Below, in pieces: positions 2,378 to 51,753 of a stretch of 64,000 nucleotides of DNA (within the stretch, counting starts at the first letter, position 1; every line of letters begins with the position of its first letter). The position numbers and the translations under genes are program-made. The notes beneath the pieces are model-generated. The model was given only the letters and a program-made list of their open reading frames with translations, did no database searches and was not told the origin of the DNA. The stretch lies in the NCBI GenBank assembly GCA_022925895.1, contig JAKSYS010000203.1, positions 1 through 64,000 of the forward strand, in the 5' to 3' direction. The DNA is from Fragilaria crotonensis (taxonomy: Eukaryota; Bacillariophyta; Fragilariophyceae; Fragilariales; Fragilariaceae).

Positions 2378-5353
2378 TCAGTCGACAATCACCCGGGAGC
2401 ATAATCCAAGCTGCGAACTCTCTATCCCAAGGGGAAAAAAAGATCGCAGGAAATTCTTCTTTGGAACGCCGGCAATTCCAGCACGATCCCGACGCCCAGA
2501 CTGAGGTTTGCAAAGACTGGGCTGACATTGAAGTACATAGCGATACTGACACGAATTGCGTCCGTCCAGTGGTGACGAACATGCTTTCGGGATGGCGATA
2601 TGTTCATCTCCATTGAAAAGCTCGTTGTCGGTAACATATACATCAATAATGGCTACTCCGTCAATACATCCTGAGGTGAAGGACGAAGATGCACCACACT
2701 TCAACAAGGTTTGTCCAACACACTTGAATTTGCTTTCGGCGTCGTCAAAGTCAGCGGCCAGCCAGTCAAGTGCCACAGCTGCACCGTCGACGCCACAACC
2801 CTTCCAAACCTGTGACAAGCTGAAGGTGACAGAACTTCCGTTTTGTGATTCAATTTTGATGGGAGTTACCTCGGGAGCGGCGCATCTATGATCAATCTCA
2901 ATTGTCGACACGTCGATCGTCTTAGAAAGGTCTTCACACGGTACTGCAATTTCGGCTCCTGCAAATGATTCTTTGAGTTGCAGATGCCTGTCTGCGACAT
3001 CGACGCAAGCGATTTTGAACTCCCAATAGCATCGTTTGTTCGGATTGAACTGGGGAAATGCACCTTCGAGCGGCGATTGACAGCGAGCTTCTGGGATCAG
3101 TGAAGTATCGACGCCAATCTGGTTGAAATCACCATCGTTACCTCCATACACACTGATCAATGCAGATCCAAGAGTACACTTCGCTTTGAATTCAGAGTTA
3201 ATATGTCCAGAAGAAACGAAATCCCGGTAGTAGCAGAAATCTTCGCTTTCGCTTTGCTCCGGGTTGTCAAACCAAACAGCGTATCGTTCCAGTCCACTAA
3301 GGAAGGGTTGAGACAGCTGAAAACTCACTGTTTCGCCGTCAGCACTGGTAACTTTGACGTTAGATTCGCCGTAGTACCCTTGCTTACAAGCCGTTGAGAA
3401 AACAGTCTCCCTTACAAGTGCAATTGTCGTCTTAGGCGAAGTCACACTCGTTCGACCAAAACTCGATCGTCCAGAAACCGTATTAGAAACCTTCGTTGAA
3501 GGCTCAGCAGACGGCATCGAGCTGCCTGTAGGAACCTGGCTAGGTTCTGACGAAGGAAGCCGACTCAGACTCGAGCTTGGCAAGAAATTGGGAGAAGGCA
3601 TTGAGGACTCAGGAGGCTGTGGAACGCCAGTAGGCTGAAACGTCGGGGACGCTGTGACTGGGACGCCAGCTGGCGGAAGGGTGGAACCTGGAGGGACGGG
3701 AGCGCCCGTCGGTTGCGACGTCGGCGAATTTGTGACGGGGACTGGACTGGCTGGATCTGGACTCGCAGGATTGAGGGGTGTAGGAGACTTCGTTCCCGAC
3801 GACACGTCAATCTTGATCTCAATCGCATCAAAATCGTTGCAACTGCACCCCTCAGCAGATTGACCATTCACCTCCACCCTATCAACATACCCCGCATCCG
3901 CGCACACACCAATCTCGACGGACTCAGATACAGTGAACGTTTCACTCGAAAACAACTGCAAGTTACCCGCAAGCAAATTGCGAGATTCGCCGTCGAAAGT
4001 GCGGTTCAGCTGCTTGATGTCGACCTTCGATTCTCCGTTATTGACGACCAGGTATGTGTATTGAATATCGACAAAGCAATCGTTGTTTCCCTCGCAATTC
4101 TTGAACCTCACAAGCTCCAACGATCCAAAAGAATCCAAAAGTTTCAGTCCATCGCCGCTGCACGTTGTGTCGATCTCAATTCGCTGAGCAGTGTCGCCGC
4201 TCTGGGACTCAACAAACGCAAAGAGCTTCGCAGGGAGCGCATCGCTATTGGATGAAACACAGATCTCGTCACCTGCTGCGAGAGTCTTCTCTACCAAGTT
4301 AATGCCACCGGGGTCATCATCGAGTGATACAACCATTCCAGCCACAGTCGGTAGAACACCCAAATCCTGACACATCAGCAGACCGCCCTTTCCAATTCTG
4401 CTCGCATCACACTTCGAAGCAGTGTATCGGAAACACAACTCGGTTGCAGCACAACCCTGGCAGGTGAATTGCGAGACCCCGCTTAAGTCTGCGCAGGTGT
4501 TGCTCGATCCTTTCACAGTGCAAGAAACGTCGACACCGAGAGAGCAACACTGTCCAGTCGGGGCAGCAGTTGGAGAAACTGCATTTGGTGGAGGCGTGGA
4601 GCCTGGAGGCACGGGTGCGCCAGTCGGCTGTGAAGCCGGGGATGTTGTGACTGGGACGCTAGCTGGTGAAGGTGTGAATCCAGGAGGCACGGGTGCGCCC
4701 GTCGGCTGAGATGCCGGGGAGAATGTGATGGGAACGCCAGCTGGCGATGTCGTGGACCCTGGCGGAACGGGTGCACCCGTCGGCTGAGACGCCGGGGATG
4801 CTGTGATGGGAACGCCAGCTGGTGAGAGCGTGGACCCTGGAGGCACGGGTGCACCTGTCGGCTGAAATGCCGGAGAGGATGCGACAGGGACGCCAGCTGG
4901 GGAAGGGGTGGACCCTGGAGGCACGGGTGCGCCTGTCGTCTGAGACATCGGGGACATCGTGACTGGGACGCCGGCTGGTGGAAAGGTGGAGCCTTGAGGC
5001 ACGGGTGCGCCCGTCGGCTGAGACGCCGGGGAGAATGTGACAGGGACACCAGCTGGCGGAGGCGTGGACCCAGGAGGCACGGGCGCACCTGTCGTCTGAG
5101 ACATCGGGGACGTTGTGACTGGGACACCAGCTGGTGAAGGGGTGGACCCTGGTGGCACGGGTGCGCCCGTCAGCTGAGATGCCGGAGAGGATGTGACAGG
5201 GACGCCAGCTGGCGAAGGCGTGGACCCTGGAGGCACGGGTGCACCAGTCGTCGGAGGTAGTGGGAACGTTGTGATGGGGACACCAGCTGGTGAAAGGGTG
5301 GACCCTGGTGGCACTGGTGTGCCGCAACGCTGGGGACGTTGTGACTGGGACAA
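2378..5353 (-). CDS. Giant secreted repeat protein, C-terminal part (frame-separated from its N-terminal part)
   Basis: This 991-codon frame continues the minus-strand gene that starts at 12699, but in a different frame. Order of parts: an array of about 18-residue units of the type [18 protein letters not shown]; the third copy of a Cys-rich domain (about 4550-3830, with paired cysteines and an N-R-T glycosylation sequon); a short second Pro/Ser/Thr array; then two tandem copies of another Cys-containing domain (about 3400-2990 and 2910-2520). The last two share a pattern of VxFxLSQ, AVxxD/W, FxC, IxVY, FN, IPxAC/EARC, SPL.G and C-Y.. . The first residues after the apparent ATG at 5353 are out of frame with the repeat, so that ATG is not a real start. 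Frame restoration relative to the upstream part needs the indels described at 5320-5511. Secreted or cell-wall location is inferred from the upstream signal peptide. No catalytic motif is seen. Confidence 0.7.
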
Positions 5354-49624: not shown

Positions 49625-50134
49625 TTGTGTGGGTTCTCAACACTTTGTGTGCTCCACAACCTCTTCGTTCATATCACAGTGCAGAAATCTGGAGGGCTCC
49701 GGAGTTCGCATCTTCTCTTGTTGATGAATTGACACAACGAGACAACTGACGCCAACATCATGTGACTGCGACAATCCGAAGTACTGTACGGTAAGTACGA
49801 GTACCTGGTTCGTGCGCACGGTAGACGGTACCAGTACTCCAGTACTGGGCAAAAAACAAAACCCTCCAGTGTCCAGTGTATATGTAGGACTTGACGTTTT
49901 TCTTACCCGTAGCGGTATGTTTGTATGCAGGTATTCTGCATATTCGGTTACTCCTTCTACTACGAGTACTAGACCTAGTAGCAAGTGGCAACGGTAGCCA
50001 AACGGCCGAACAAGCCACGCCTGAGCACGAGCAGTATATAATTGTGTGTAACAACTGATGCCAGTATCGGAGGTTGATCATTGTATGAAATCTTAAAAGT
50101 TATATTTATATATCAAACTTTCCGCCTGCCAAAT
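49625..50134. other. Spacer upstream of the permuted tRNA gene
   Basis: No gene was found. No tRNA 5' half (no A-box-like TAGCTCAGTGG) was seen anywhere here, which matters for reading the next feature. A TATA-rich stretch lies at 50099-50115, followed by TCAAAC about 35 bp before the tRNA 3' half, like the upstream elements of some plant and algal tRNA genes. Confidence 0.5.
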
Positions 50135-50149
50135 AACAACCCATAATAT

Positions 50150-50231
50150 TCGAATGGTCACGTGTTCGACTCACGTTTGGTGCTAAGATAGCTTGCACTA
50201 ATAGCTCAGTGGTAGAGCGTTCGATTGCAGA
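50150..50231 (+). tRNA. Circularly permuted tRNA-Cys (GCA): 3' half precedes 5' half
   Basis: The 3' half is 50150-50184: TCGAA (positions 39-43), TGGTC (44-48), ACGTG-TTCGACT-CACGT (T arm), TTGGTGC (66-72) and discriminator T73. A 10-nt spacer (50185-50194) follows. The 5' half is 50195-50231: GCACTAA (1-7), TA, GCTC-AGTGGTA-GAGC (D arm), G26, TTCGA (27-31) and TTGCAGA (32-38). Joined 5' half to 3' half they form a 72-nt cloverleaf. All stems pair fully: acceptor 7/7 (one G-T), D 4/4, anticodon 5/5, T 5/5. T73 and the GCA anticodon are tRNA-Cys hallmarks. The B box thus precedes the A box. Leader 50135-50141 and trailer 50232-50238 can pair 6 of 7, extending the anticodon stem as in other permuted precursors. 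A TTTTT Pol III stop follows at 50241. Confidence 0.85.
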
Positions 50232-50240
50232 GGATGTTTC

Positions 50241-50245
50241 TTTTT
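50241..50245 (+). terminator. RNA polymerase III terminator after the permuted tRNA
   Basis: A TTTTT run starts 10 nt after the end of the tRNA 5' half. A Pol III transcript would therefore contain, in order, leader, 3' half, spacer, 5' half and a short trailer. That is the expected precursor of a permuted tRNA. Confidence 0.6.
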
Positions 50246-50249
50246 CGCT

Positions 50250-51340
50250 TTTGCAGTTTGCATGTGTGAAATTGGCCGTGAGATAGTTTGCACTAATAGC
50301 TCAGTGGTAGAGCGTTCGATTCAAGACGGTGTCTCTTCTTCTCCACTTTCACAGGTGTGAAGTTGGTGGTATAGGGTTCGATTGTAGAGGATATTTCTTT
50401 TTCACTCTTAAGAGCATTCGAGTGCAGAGGATGTTTCTTTTTCACTTTTGCAGGTGTGAAGTTGGCGGTGAGGTAGCCTGCACTAAGAGCATGTCTTATC
50501 ATGGGGTACAAAAATTCCATGGATGTACCTGGGGGTAGATCGATGTACCCTTCCAAAAACTTCACAAAATATGCAATTCTTATCGTGTGGTCTTGTACAC
50601 GATTTATTTTCCATATCCATACATTAATATATCCTATGTCGCTATGTCTTGTCTTGCGTGTACATATTGTAATCTACATACTGAATATTTTATATGCGTG
50701 TAATGACAATTCGAGTGATCCTTGTTGTTGTTGACGAAAGCCACGAAGGCAATGACGTCTGGAATGACGACACGGACTCGATGGCTGAGTTCGTGGCGAG
50801 CGTAGAAATGCTGGGAAGGCCTCTTCCTTGTGCGGGAGTTCGGGGCAAGTGTCGAAACAATGCAATGGCAGCATCTTGGCAAGTTGTTGGTGGAGTTGTT
50901 GCTGTTGGAGGCGCTGCCATGAGCCATTGTTGAGCAATTCTCACATGTTTTATCGTGTATGACAACACAAGGAACAGGTACGGAAATGTGGTGAAACGTG
51001 ACAAAAGGTCACTGCACATCACCACTGGAGTCTTGCAACAGTAGTGTACCTAGGTAGATGAGGGGGGGTCAGATTTTCAAAATCTGACCCAGGTACGTCA
51101 GGGGGGTACATCATCTGACCCCCCCCAATTCGATGTACCCCCCTTCATAAGAATTGCTTTTTTCGACGAAAATCGAAAATTCGGCGGGATGTACCCGATG
51201 ATAAGACATGCTCTAATAGCTTAGTGGTAGAGCGTTCGATTGCAGAGGGTGCTTATTCTCCACTTTTACAGGTGTGAAGTTGGTGGTGAGTTAGCTTGCA
51301 CTTAAAGCTCAGTGTAGAGCGTTCGATTGCAGTCAGTGTT
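50250..51340 (+). repeat. Array of decayed permuted-tRNA units
   Basis: Copies of the tRNA 5' half recur downstream: 50290-50326 (anticodon loop changed to a TTCAAGA form), weaker pieces near 50371-50390 and 50408-50430, one split copy (50481-50486 plus 51217-51250, interrupted by a MITE), and 51298-51334. Each fuller copy is preceded by a degenerate remnant of the acceptor/spacer segment (GTTGGTGGTGAGTTAGCTT against GTTTGGTGCTAAGATAGCTT). The copied unit therefore keeps the 3'-then-5' order, but the T arm and the TCGAA strand are lost. Between copies lies a shared CACTTTTGCAGGTGTGAA-like linker. None of these can form a full tRNA. Confidence 0.75.
50487..51213. mobile_element. MITE, 727 bp, inserted into a tRNA-derived copy, TAA duplication
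   Basis: Terminal inverted repeats start GAGCATGTCTTATCATGGGG and end with the complement, with a single mismatch over ~22 bp. TAA flanks both sides (50484-50486 and 51214-51216). Removing the element plus one TAA rebuilds GCACTAATAGCTTAGTGG, the start of a tRNA 5' half, which proves the insertion. The interior has GGTCAGATTTTCAAAATCTGACC-type inverted repeats and no transposase. PIF/Harbinger-like. Confidence 0.85.
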
Positions 51341-51753
51341 GATTTTAGATTTTTGCAGGTGTGCAGTTTTCCAAAATGTAGCAATTCACAGCGAACAAGG
51401 GGCGATCATCGCGATGCTTATGAGCATAATTTTGGAGTTCTTTACCATGAGTTCGACGTTCTCTGAACATAATTGTATGCAAGGTGTTCAGGTGTCAGAT
51501 CCTCCAAATGCGGACTCGAATACGTACAACACTATCAACTACCAAACCCCCAACACAAACTGATGTCAACACATTCACCTAGGGATTACAAAATACAAAA
51601 CTTGCTTCGAATTCGTCCTTTTGGGGAGGTGTCAGACTAGCGCGGGCTAGCTTTACGTAAGCTGCATCCGTTGTCCTTATCCCTGTTTCCCTTCAGCTAG
51701 GTAAGGTTGTAGGAGCCTCCGCAGGCATAGATTCCAACGGCGCCGCCACGCCA
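51335..51753. other. Spacer, nothing recognised
   Basis: No coding frame or RNA gene was identified between the last tRNA-derived copy and the 3' end of the phosphatase gene. Confidence 0.5.

Follow-up and report, generated by a model that had tools for sequence, protein, structure and literature searches.

The window, that is, the whole stretch of 64,000 nt of a Fragilaria crotonensis contig (JAKSYS010000203.1) that was analysed, contains the two halves of a tRNA-Cys(GCA) in swapped order on the plus strand (50149-50230): the 3′ half comes first and is followed, after 10 bp, by the 5′ half (Table 1). The 3′ half comprises the 3′ anticodon strand, the variable loop, the T arm, the 3′ acceptor strand and the discriminator U73, with a B-box-like GTTCGACTC inside the T arm; the 5′ half comprises the 5′ acceptor strand, the D arm, the anticodon GCA and G37, with an A-box-like TAGCTCAGTGG inside the D arm. 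This is the organization of a type II permuted tRNA gene, in which the 3′ half lies upstream of the 5′ half with a short spacer in between, and not that of an ordinary or intron-containing tRNA gene, in which the 5′ half stands ahead of the 3′ half. Intervening sequences of permuted tRNA genes range from 1 to 74 bp, according to PMC3978253. When the locus was searched, neither a 5′ half upstream of it nor a second 3′ half downstream was found, just as a preliminary description of this DNA had stated; the anticodon, the discriminator (T73), the spacer and the T run also lie where that description had placed them. Its half borders (50150-50184 and 50195-50231) hold with regard to order and position, except that the junction base is off by one (see below). 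Neither ARAGORN nor Rfam, the latter with its gathering scores as cutoff, gave a match anywhere in the window.

Table 1. Permuted tRNA-Cys(GCA) locus and the array of 5′-half copies behind it (positions in the window)
Feature	Position	Strand	Basis
TATA-like element TTATATTTATATATCAAAC, 31-49 bp upstream of the 3′ half	50100-50118	+	sequence; putative promoter role
Precursor leader	50130-50148	+	predicted transcription start
tRNA-Cys 3′ half, positions 38-73	50149-50184	+	sequence, pairing, covariance model
Intervening sequence, 10 nt, linking the acceptor ends in the precursor	50185-50194	+	sequence
tRNA-Cys 5′ half, positions 1-37	50195-50230	+	sequence, pairing, covariance model
Trailer AGGATGTTTC and Pol III-type T5 run (T5 at 50241-50245)	50231-50245	+	
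Extra 5′ half, copy 2, GCA anticodon lost	50290-50325	+	
Two partial copies of anticodon arm and trailer, lacking acceptor and D arm	50371-50413, 50411-50453	+	
Extra 5′ half, copy 3, split by the MITE	50480-50486 and 51217-51245	+	
MITE-like insertion, 727 bp, terminal inverted repeats GAGCATGTCTTATC...	50487-51213	+	
Extra 5′ half, copy 4, D loop damaged	51298-51331	+	

Joining the 5′ half to the 3′ half gives a tRNA of 72 nt with 21/21 stem pairs, distributed over the acceptor (7/7, one of them U-G), D (4/4), anticodon (5/5) and T (5/5) stems; the same pairing had been claimed before and was reproduced upon recounting. The joined molecule carries U8, A14, G15:C48, G18G19, A21, U33, G53:C61, UUC, A58 and U73, all of which belong to the tRNA consensus. 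A part of this list of bases is also given in PMC3978253. The product of joining is a complete cloverleaf with consensus bases, while its free minimum in RNAfold is a near-cloverleaf variant with a D stem of 3 bp (-23.0, or -24.3 with A38), which is 2.7-5.1 kcal/mol lower than the cloverleaf as drawn.

A covariance model for permuted tRNAs (R1) was trained on 18 nuclear tRNAs of ordinary order from this genome after they had been rotated at 37/38; out of 28 nuclear tRNAs, eight repeats, one long-armed Ser gene and one truncated match had been set aside, and the locus itself was not in the training set. R1 scores the locus with 72.9 bits (E 1.4e-21, from a short and rough calibration); elsewhere in the window it matches only twice, with 22.5 and with 20.4 bits, both times on later 5′-half copies. 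As controls, organelle sequences and viral DNA rich in tRNAs (41 sources, 397 kb together) were searched with R1; the highest of 305 matches reached 62.2 bits. Thirteen of the higher control matches, picked by hand at one per locus with repeats and further matches at the same locus skipped, were checked with ARAGORN; 11 of the 13 bridge two neighbouring ordinary tRNAs, running from the tail of the first into the head of the second, and the remaining two (L108 and L125) do not.

These two lie in phage contigs (L108:4766-4845, with the same score in L129 and L131, and L125:1812-1890) and are tRNA-like modules in permuted order, scored by R1 with 62.2 and 60.4 bits, respectively, where no ordinary tRNA is present. 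Since they overlap sub-threshold YrlA matches (37.5 bits in L108 and 30.7 in L125, gathering score 69), they are probably Y RNA-like mimics, possibly permuted phage tRNAs. L108 also contains a match to GOLLD RNA (2764-3210; 122.1 bits, gathering score 150) and 18 tRNAs according to ARAGORN. A gapped permuted tRNA-Cys pattern had no match in the collections genome_contigs and viral_contigs, neither of which is meant for eukaryotic nuclear genomes; a looser permuted pattern matched 27 viral stretches, and blastn against phages gave short matches only, covering at most 17% of the query among the best 20 of 183.

Signals compatible with transcription by Pol III flank the halves: a TATA-like box is found upstream and a T run downstream, and neither lies in the intervening sequence. 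AT content in ordinary nuclear tRNA genes of the diatom (24 compared) is highest at -35 to -26 (0.82 and 0.78); the AT-rich stretch of the permuted gene, at -60 to -36, is farther out than in these. The first run of at least four T begins 3-11 nt past the gene in the same 24 genes, and here the T5 run follows after 10 nt. For the permuted genes of Cyanidioschyzon merolae, PMC3978253 describes TATA-like sequences within 50 bp upstream as well as T runs.

The placement of the junction draws on two nuclear tRNA-Tyr(GTA) genes (L133 and L134), which have the ordinary order and contain introns of 12 and 17 nt, unlike each other, after TGTAG. Both introns begin with AGG after G37 (ARAGORN labels the second one 38-39, counting one extra base at the 5′ end), and because the trailer of the permuted gene likewise begins with AGG after G37, the comparison favours a junction at 37/38, one base from the earlier placement. 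A cut after G37 makes the T at 50149 position 38 (U38). A38 is usual in eukaryotic tRNA-Cys, and since the tRNA-Tyr introns are ambiguous by one base, with A on both sides, A38 taken from 50231, as in the earlier placement, is a possible alternative. In the canonical register of a bulge-helix-bulge (BHB) motif, bases 32-34 find partners at -3, -4 and -5 of the leader and base 35 stays unpaired; central pairs thus amount to 3/4, and the outer helix reaches 6/7 after a shift by one base. The junction motif may be described as a relaxed, imperfect BHB-like element at the canonical place. A helix between leader and trailer had been proposed before, and 6/7 pairs can indeed form between 50135-50141 and 50232-50238; however, in the unconstrained RNAfold minimum of the precursor, which contains the anticodon stem, T, acceptor and D (3-bp) hairpins, the helix is absent and the trailer folds on itself instead of pairing with the leader, which weakens this part of the proposal.

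Downstream, the intact 5′ half (copy 1) is followed by decayed 5′ halves without 3′ halves. The insertion that splits copy 3 is bordered by a target-site duplication TAA (50484-50486 and 51214-51216), and pieces related to this MITE occur on 15 other contigs, those on C372 being 97-99% identical. An intact copy 1 next to decayed copies would be expected if the permuted gene were under selection, which is no proof of such selection. Decayed 3′ halves were sought in five array spacers and are not supported: the 3′ half alone aligns no better than shuffled sequences do (360-488 of 500 reach the score). When the 3′ half was extended by the 10-nt spacer, one array spacer (sp4) stood out, with 8 of 500 shuffles reaching the score, by virtue of TTGGTG plus the 10-nt spacer; for the other four, 171, 326, 151 and 500 of 500 shuffles did so. 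Because of these results, loss of complete units from the array spacers is not claimed. By eye, the array spacers at 50240-50370, 50435-50475 and 51290-51360 resemble spliceosomal intron borders, with a pyrimidine tract plus TTTTGCAG/G and then G/GTGAGTTAG.

Whether the genome encodes a further nuclear tRNA-Cys was examined by BLAST and three patterns across the assembly (62.1 Mb in 881 contigs), in which all counts are lower bounds. The plastid psbB of this assembly points to a diatom host: in PDB it scores highest with chains 6j3y (1165.8 bits) and 8iwh (1157.2), which come from the diatoms Chaetoceros gracilis and Thalassiosira pseudonana, and then with 9kqb (1115.2). BLAST with the joined 72-mer returned five pieces, all in the window (C118) and nothing elsewhere. 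A pattern for the 5′ half occurs without mismatch only at 50203 and 51218. With one mismatch it occurs at nine places, four of them on C880 and C881, both organelle contigs, with two being plastid tRNA-Cys; the other five are not tRNAs by ARAGORN or Rfam. The pattern has 146 places in all; among the two-mismatch places listed, 19 were not tRNAs by ARAGORN, nor were two further, tRNA-like ones by ARAGORN and Rfam. C880, taken for the mitochondrion, also carries six copies of tRNA-Lys(TTT), about 1.0-1.4 kb apart (G000:C880:69508-75687). The second pattern, from anticodon to T loop (TGCARAN{13,15}GTTCRANYC), matched 25 places, four being mitochondrial and plastid copies of tRNA-Cys; 16 of the other 21 were examined, five being left out whose matched letters are identical to those of an examined place, and none of the 16 pairs in both arms (anticodon at most 3/5, T at most 4/5) or has an Rfam tRNA match. 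The third, allowing a longer D loop and one mismatch, matched 22 places including nuclear tRNA-Tyr, -Phe and -Trp, none of them Cys, and the remaining places with a GCA anticodon reach at most 3/4 D-stem pairs. Finally, the best 63 of 2258 candidates in an RF00005 search include 28 nuclear tRNAs for ten amino acids, none for Cys.

Within the pattern, BLAST and RF00005 searches there is, then, no intact ordinary gene with the same anticodon, a finding that supports function and is not strictly defining for a permuted gene. Such a gene elsewhere would have counted against the preliminary description; it was not detected within the limits of the searches, and an ordinary nuclear tRNA-Cys gene elsewhere in the genome is unlikely. 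As no second nuclear tRNA-Cys(GCA) was detected, it follows that the locus is probably a working gene, and the sole one for cytosolic tRNA-Cys, rather than a pseudogene.

The main competitor of this reading takes the locus for a rearranged remnant, no longer functional, of a tandem tRNA-Cys array and supposes a working gene of the ordinary kind that is either absent from the assembly or was missed. The decayed 5′ halves and the MITE insertion around the locus would suit such a remnant, as would the fragmentation of the assembly into 881 contigs, which makes all search counts lower bounds. However, the permuted copy retains 21/21 stem pairs right next to decayed copies, and four genome-wide queries reveal no ordinary gene, three of which do detect other tRNAs or organellar tRNA-Cys; we regard a remnant as improbable. 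Far less credible still is an artefact, be it a wrongly assembled contig or one contributed by a contaminating prasinophyte-like alga. A permuted tRNA-Cys(GCA) is indeed known from Ostreococcus and Micromonas (Table 1 of PMC3978253), and the assembly holds no second haplotype copy of the locus; yet the trailer begins like the tRNA-Tyr introns of the same genome, and the contig belongs to the assembly because pieces related to its MITE sit on 15 other contigs. Y RNAs are non-coding RNAs that bind Ro60 and possess a tRNA-mimic module arranged like a permuted tRNA. A YrlA-like Y RNA (Rfam RF02553), which would share with the locus the tRNA-like module, the permuted order and the closed acceptor loop, is the least plausible identity and was rejected, for the YrlA alignment over 50130-50247 attains 33.2 bits (E 5.5e-05, 1.6 kb searched), under half the gathering score of 69, several model stem pairs near the free ends are broken, no Ro60 (TROVE) match was found in the genome (the control matched in 1 of 14 genomes), and the locus has a full Cys anticodon loop and U73, with no other nuclear tRNA-Cys found in the genome.

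There is thus strong reason to regard the locus as a functional type II permuted (37/38) nuclear tRNA-Cys(GCA) gene, and very likely as the only cytosolic one of the diatom; the order of the halves, the cloverleaf, the signals resembling a promoter and a terminator, and the failure to detect another nuclear tRNA-Cys(GCA) all fit the functional permuted gene that the preliminary description had proposed for this nuclear contig. Pol III would start downstream of the TATA-like element and stop in the T5 run, giving a precursor in the order leader, 3′ half, 10-nt spacer, 5′ half and trailer, which is expected to fold with a closed acceptor loop and with its free ends at the anticodon loop. Next would come cleavage after G37 and before U38 by the tRNA-splicing endonuclease; a ligase would close the cut ends into a circle, and RNase P and tRNase Z would excise the 10-nt spacer before CCA is added. 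Two genomic loci match the tRNA_int_endo family (E 8.4e-14 and 3.2e-6), and therefore subunits of the splicing endonuclease exist; the intron-containing tRNA-Tyr genes imply a working tRNA-splicing pathway. With regard to the ligase, RtcB has no match in the genome (the control matched in 9 of 14), and the Trl1-type domains PF09511 and PF08302 have none either, nor did they match in any control. Tandem duplication may have produced the arrangement, leaving a single 3′ half ahead of several 5′ halves, only the first of which is intact. In its widest form the reading is that all cytosolic Cys decoding in a stramenopile depends on one permuted tRNA gene maturing via circular RNA, that the 5′-half array preserves a step of tandem duplication, and that the origin was independent of the permutation of tRNA-Cys in prasinophytes; for this combination the balance tips only modestly in favour.

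If the reading is correct, a sole-copy, essential permuted tRNA gene in a diatom extends permuted genes to the stramenopile lineage and shows tRNA-Cys once more to be prone to permutation; it would also offer a setting in which to test an origin by tandem duplication, TATA-driven transcription by Pol III and circular tRNA intermediates. To a search program that expects the two halves of a tRNA in their usual order, this nuclear genome would seem devoid of tRNA-Cys.

Permuted tRNA genes are found in a handful of red and green algae and in one archaeon; the algae mature them through a circular RNA. Type II permuted tRNA genes are a known kind; what is new here, within the literature searched, is the diatom, and hence stramenopile, lineage. 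The novelty asserted earlier stands on these terms, since the accessible parts of that literature contained no report of a permuted tRNA in diatoms or stramenopiles. Permuted tRNA genes are further noted in Auxenochlorella (PMC12636532) and in the nucleomorph of Amorphochlora (PMC4494063).

With the permuted genes of C. merolae (Soma 2007, via PMC3978253) the diatom locus shares the TATA-like box upstream, the T run downstream and the 3′-before-5′ order, and its spacer of 10 nt falls within the range of 7-74 nt given for that alga; C. merolae, however, has 11 permuted genes with junctions at four positions, whereas one was found by the permuted-model search of the diatom window. Closer counterparts are the type II permuted tRNA-Cys(GCA) genes of Ostreococcus lucimarinus, O. 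tauri and Micromonas pusilla, described by Maruyama 2010 and listed in a table of Soma 2014 (PMC3978253). Judged by the tabulated features, these genes have the same amino acid, the same anticodon, the same 37/38 junction and no extra intron; their spacers measure 26, 38 and 12 bp, respectively, as compared to 10 in the diatom. O. lucimarinus moreover has one extra 5′ half downstream of its permuted tRNA-Cys, which the same source reads as a likely intermediate of tandem duplication. The prasinophyte genes belong to nuclei of the green lineage; the diatom locus differs from them in lineage and in the several decayed 5′ halves and the MITE that lie behind it.
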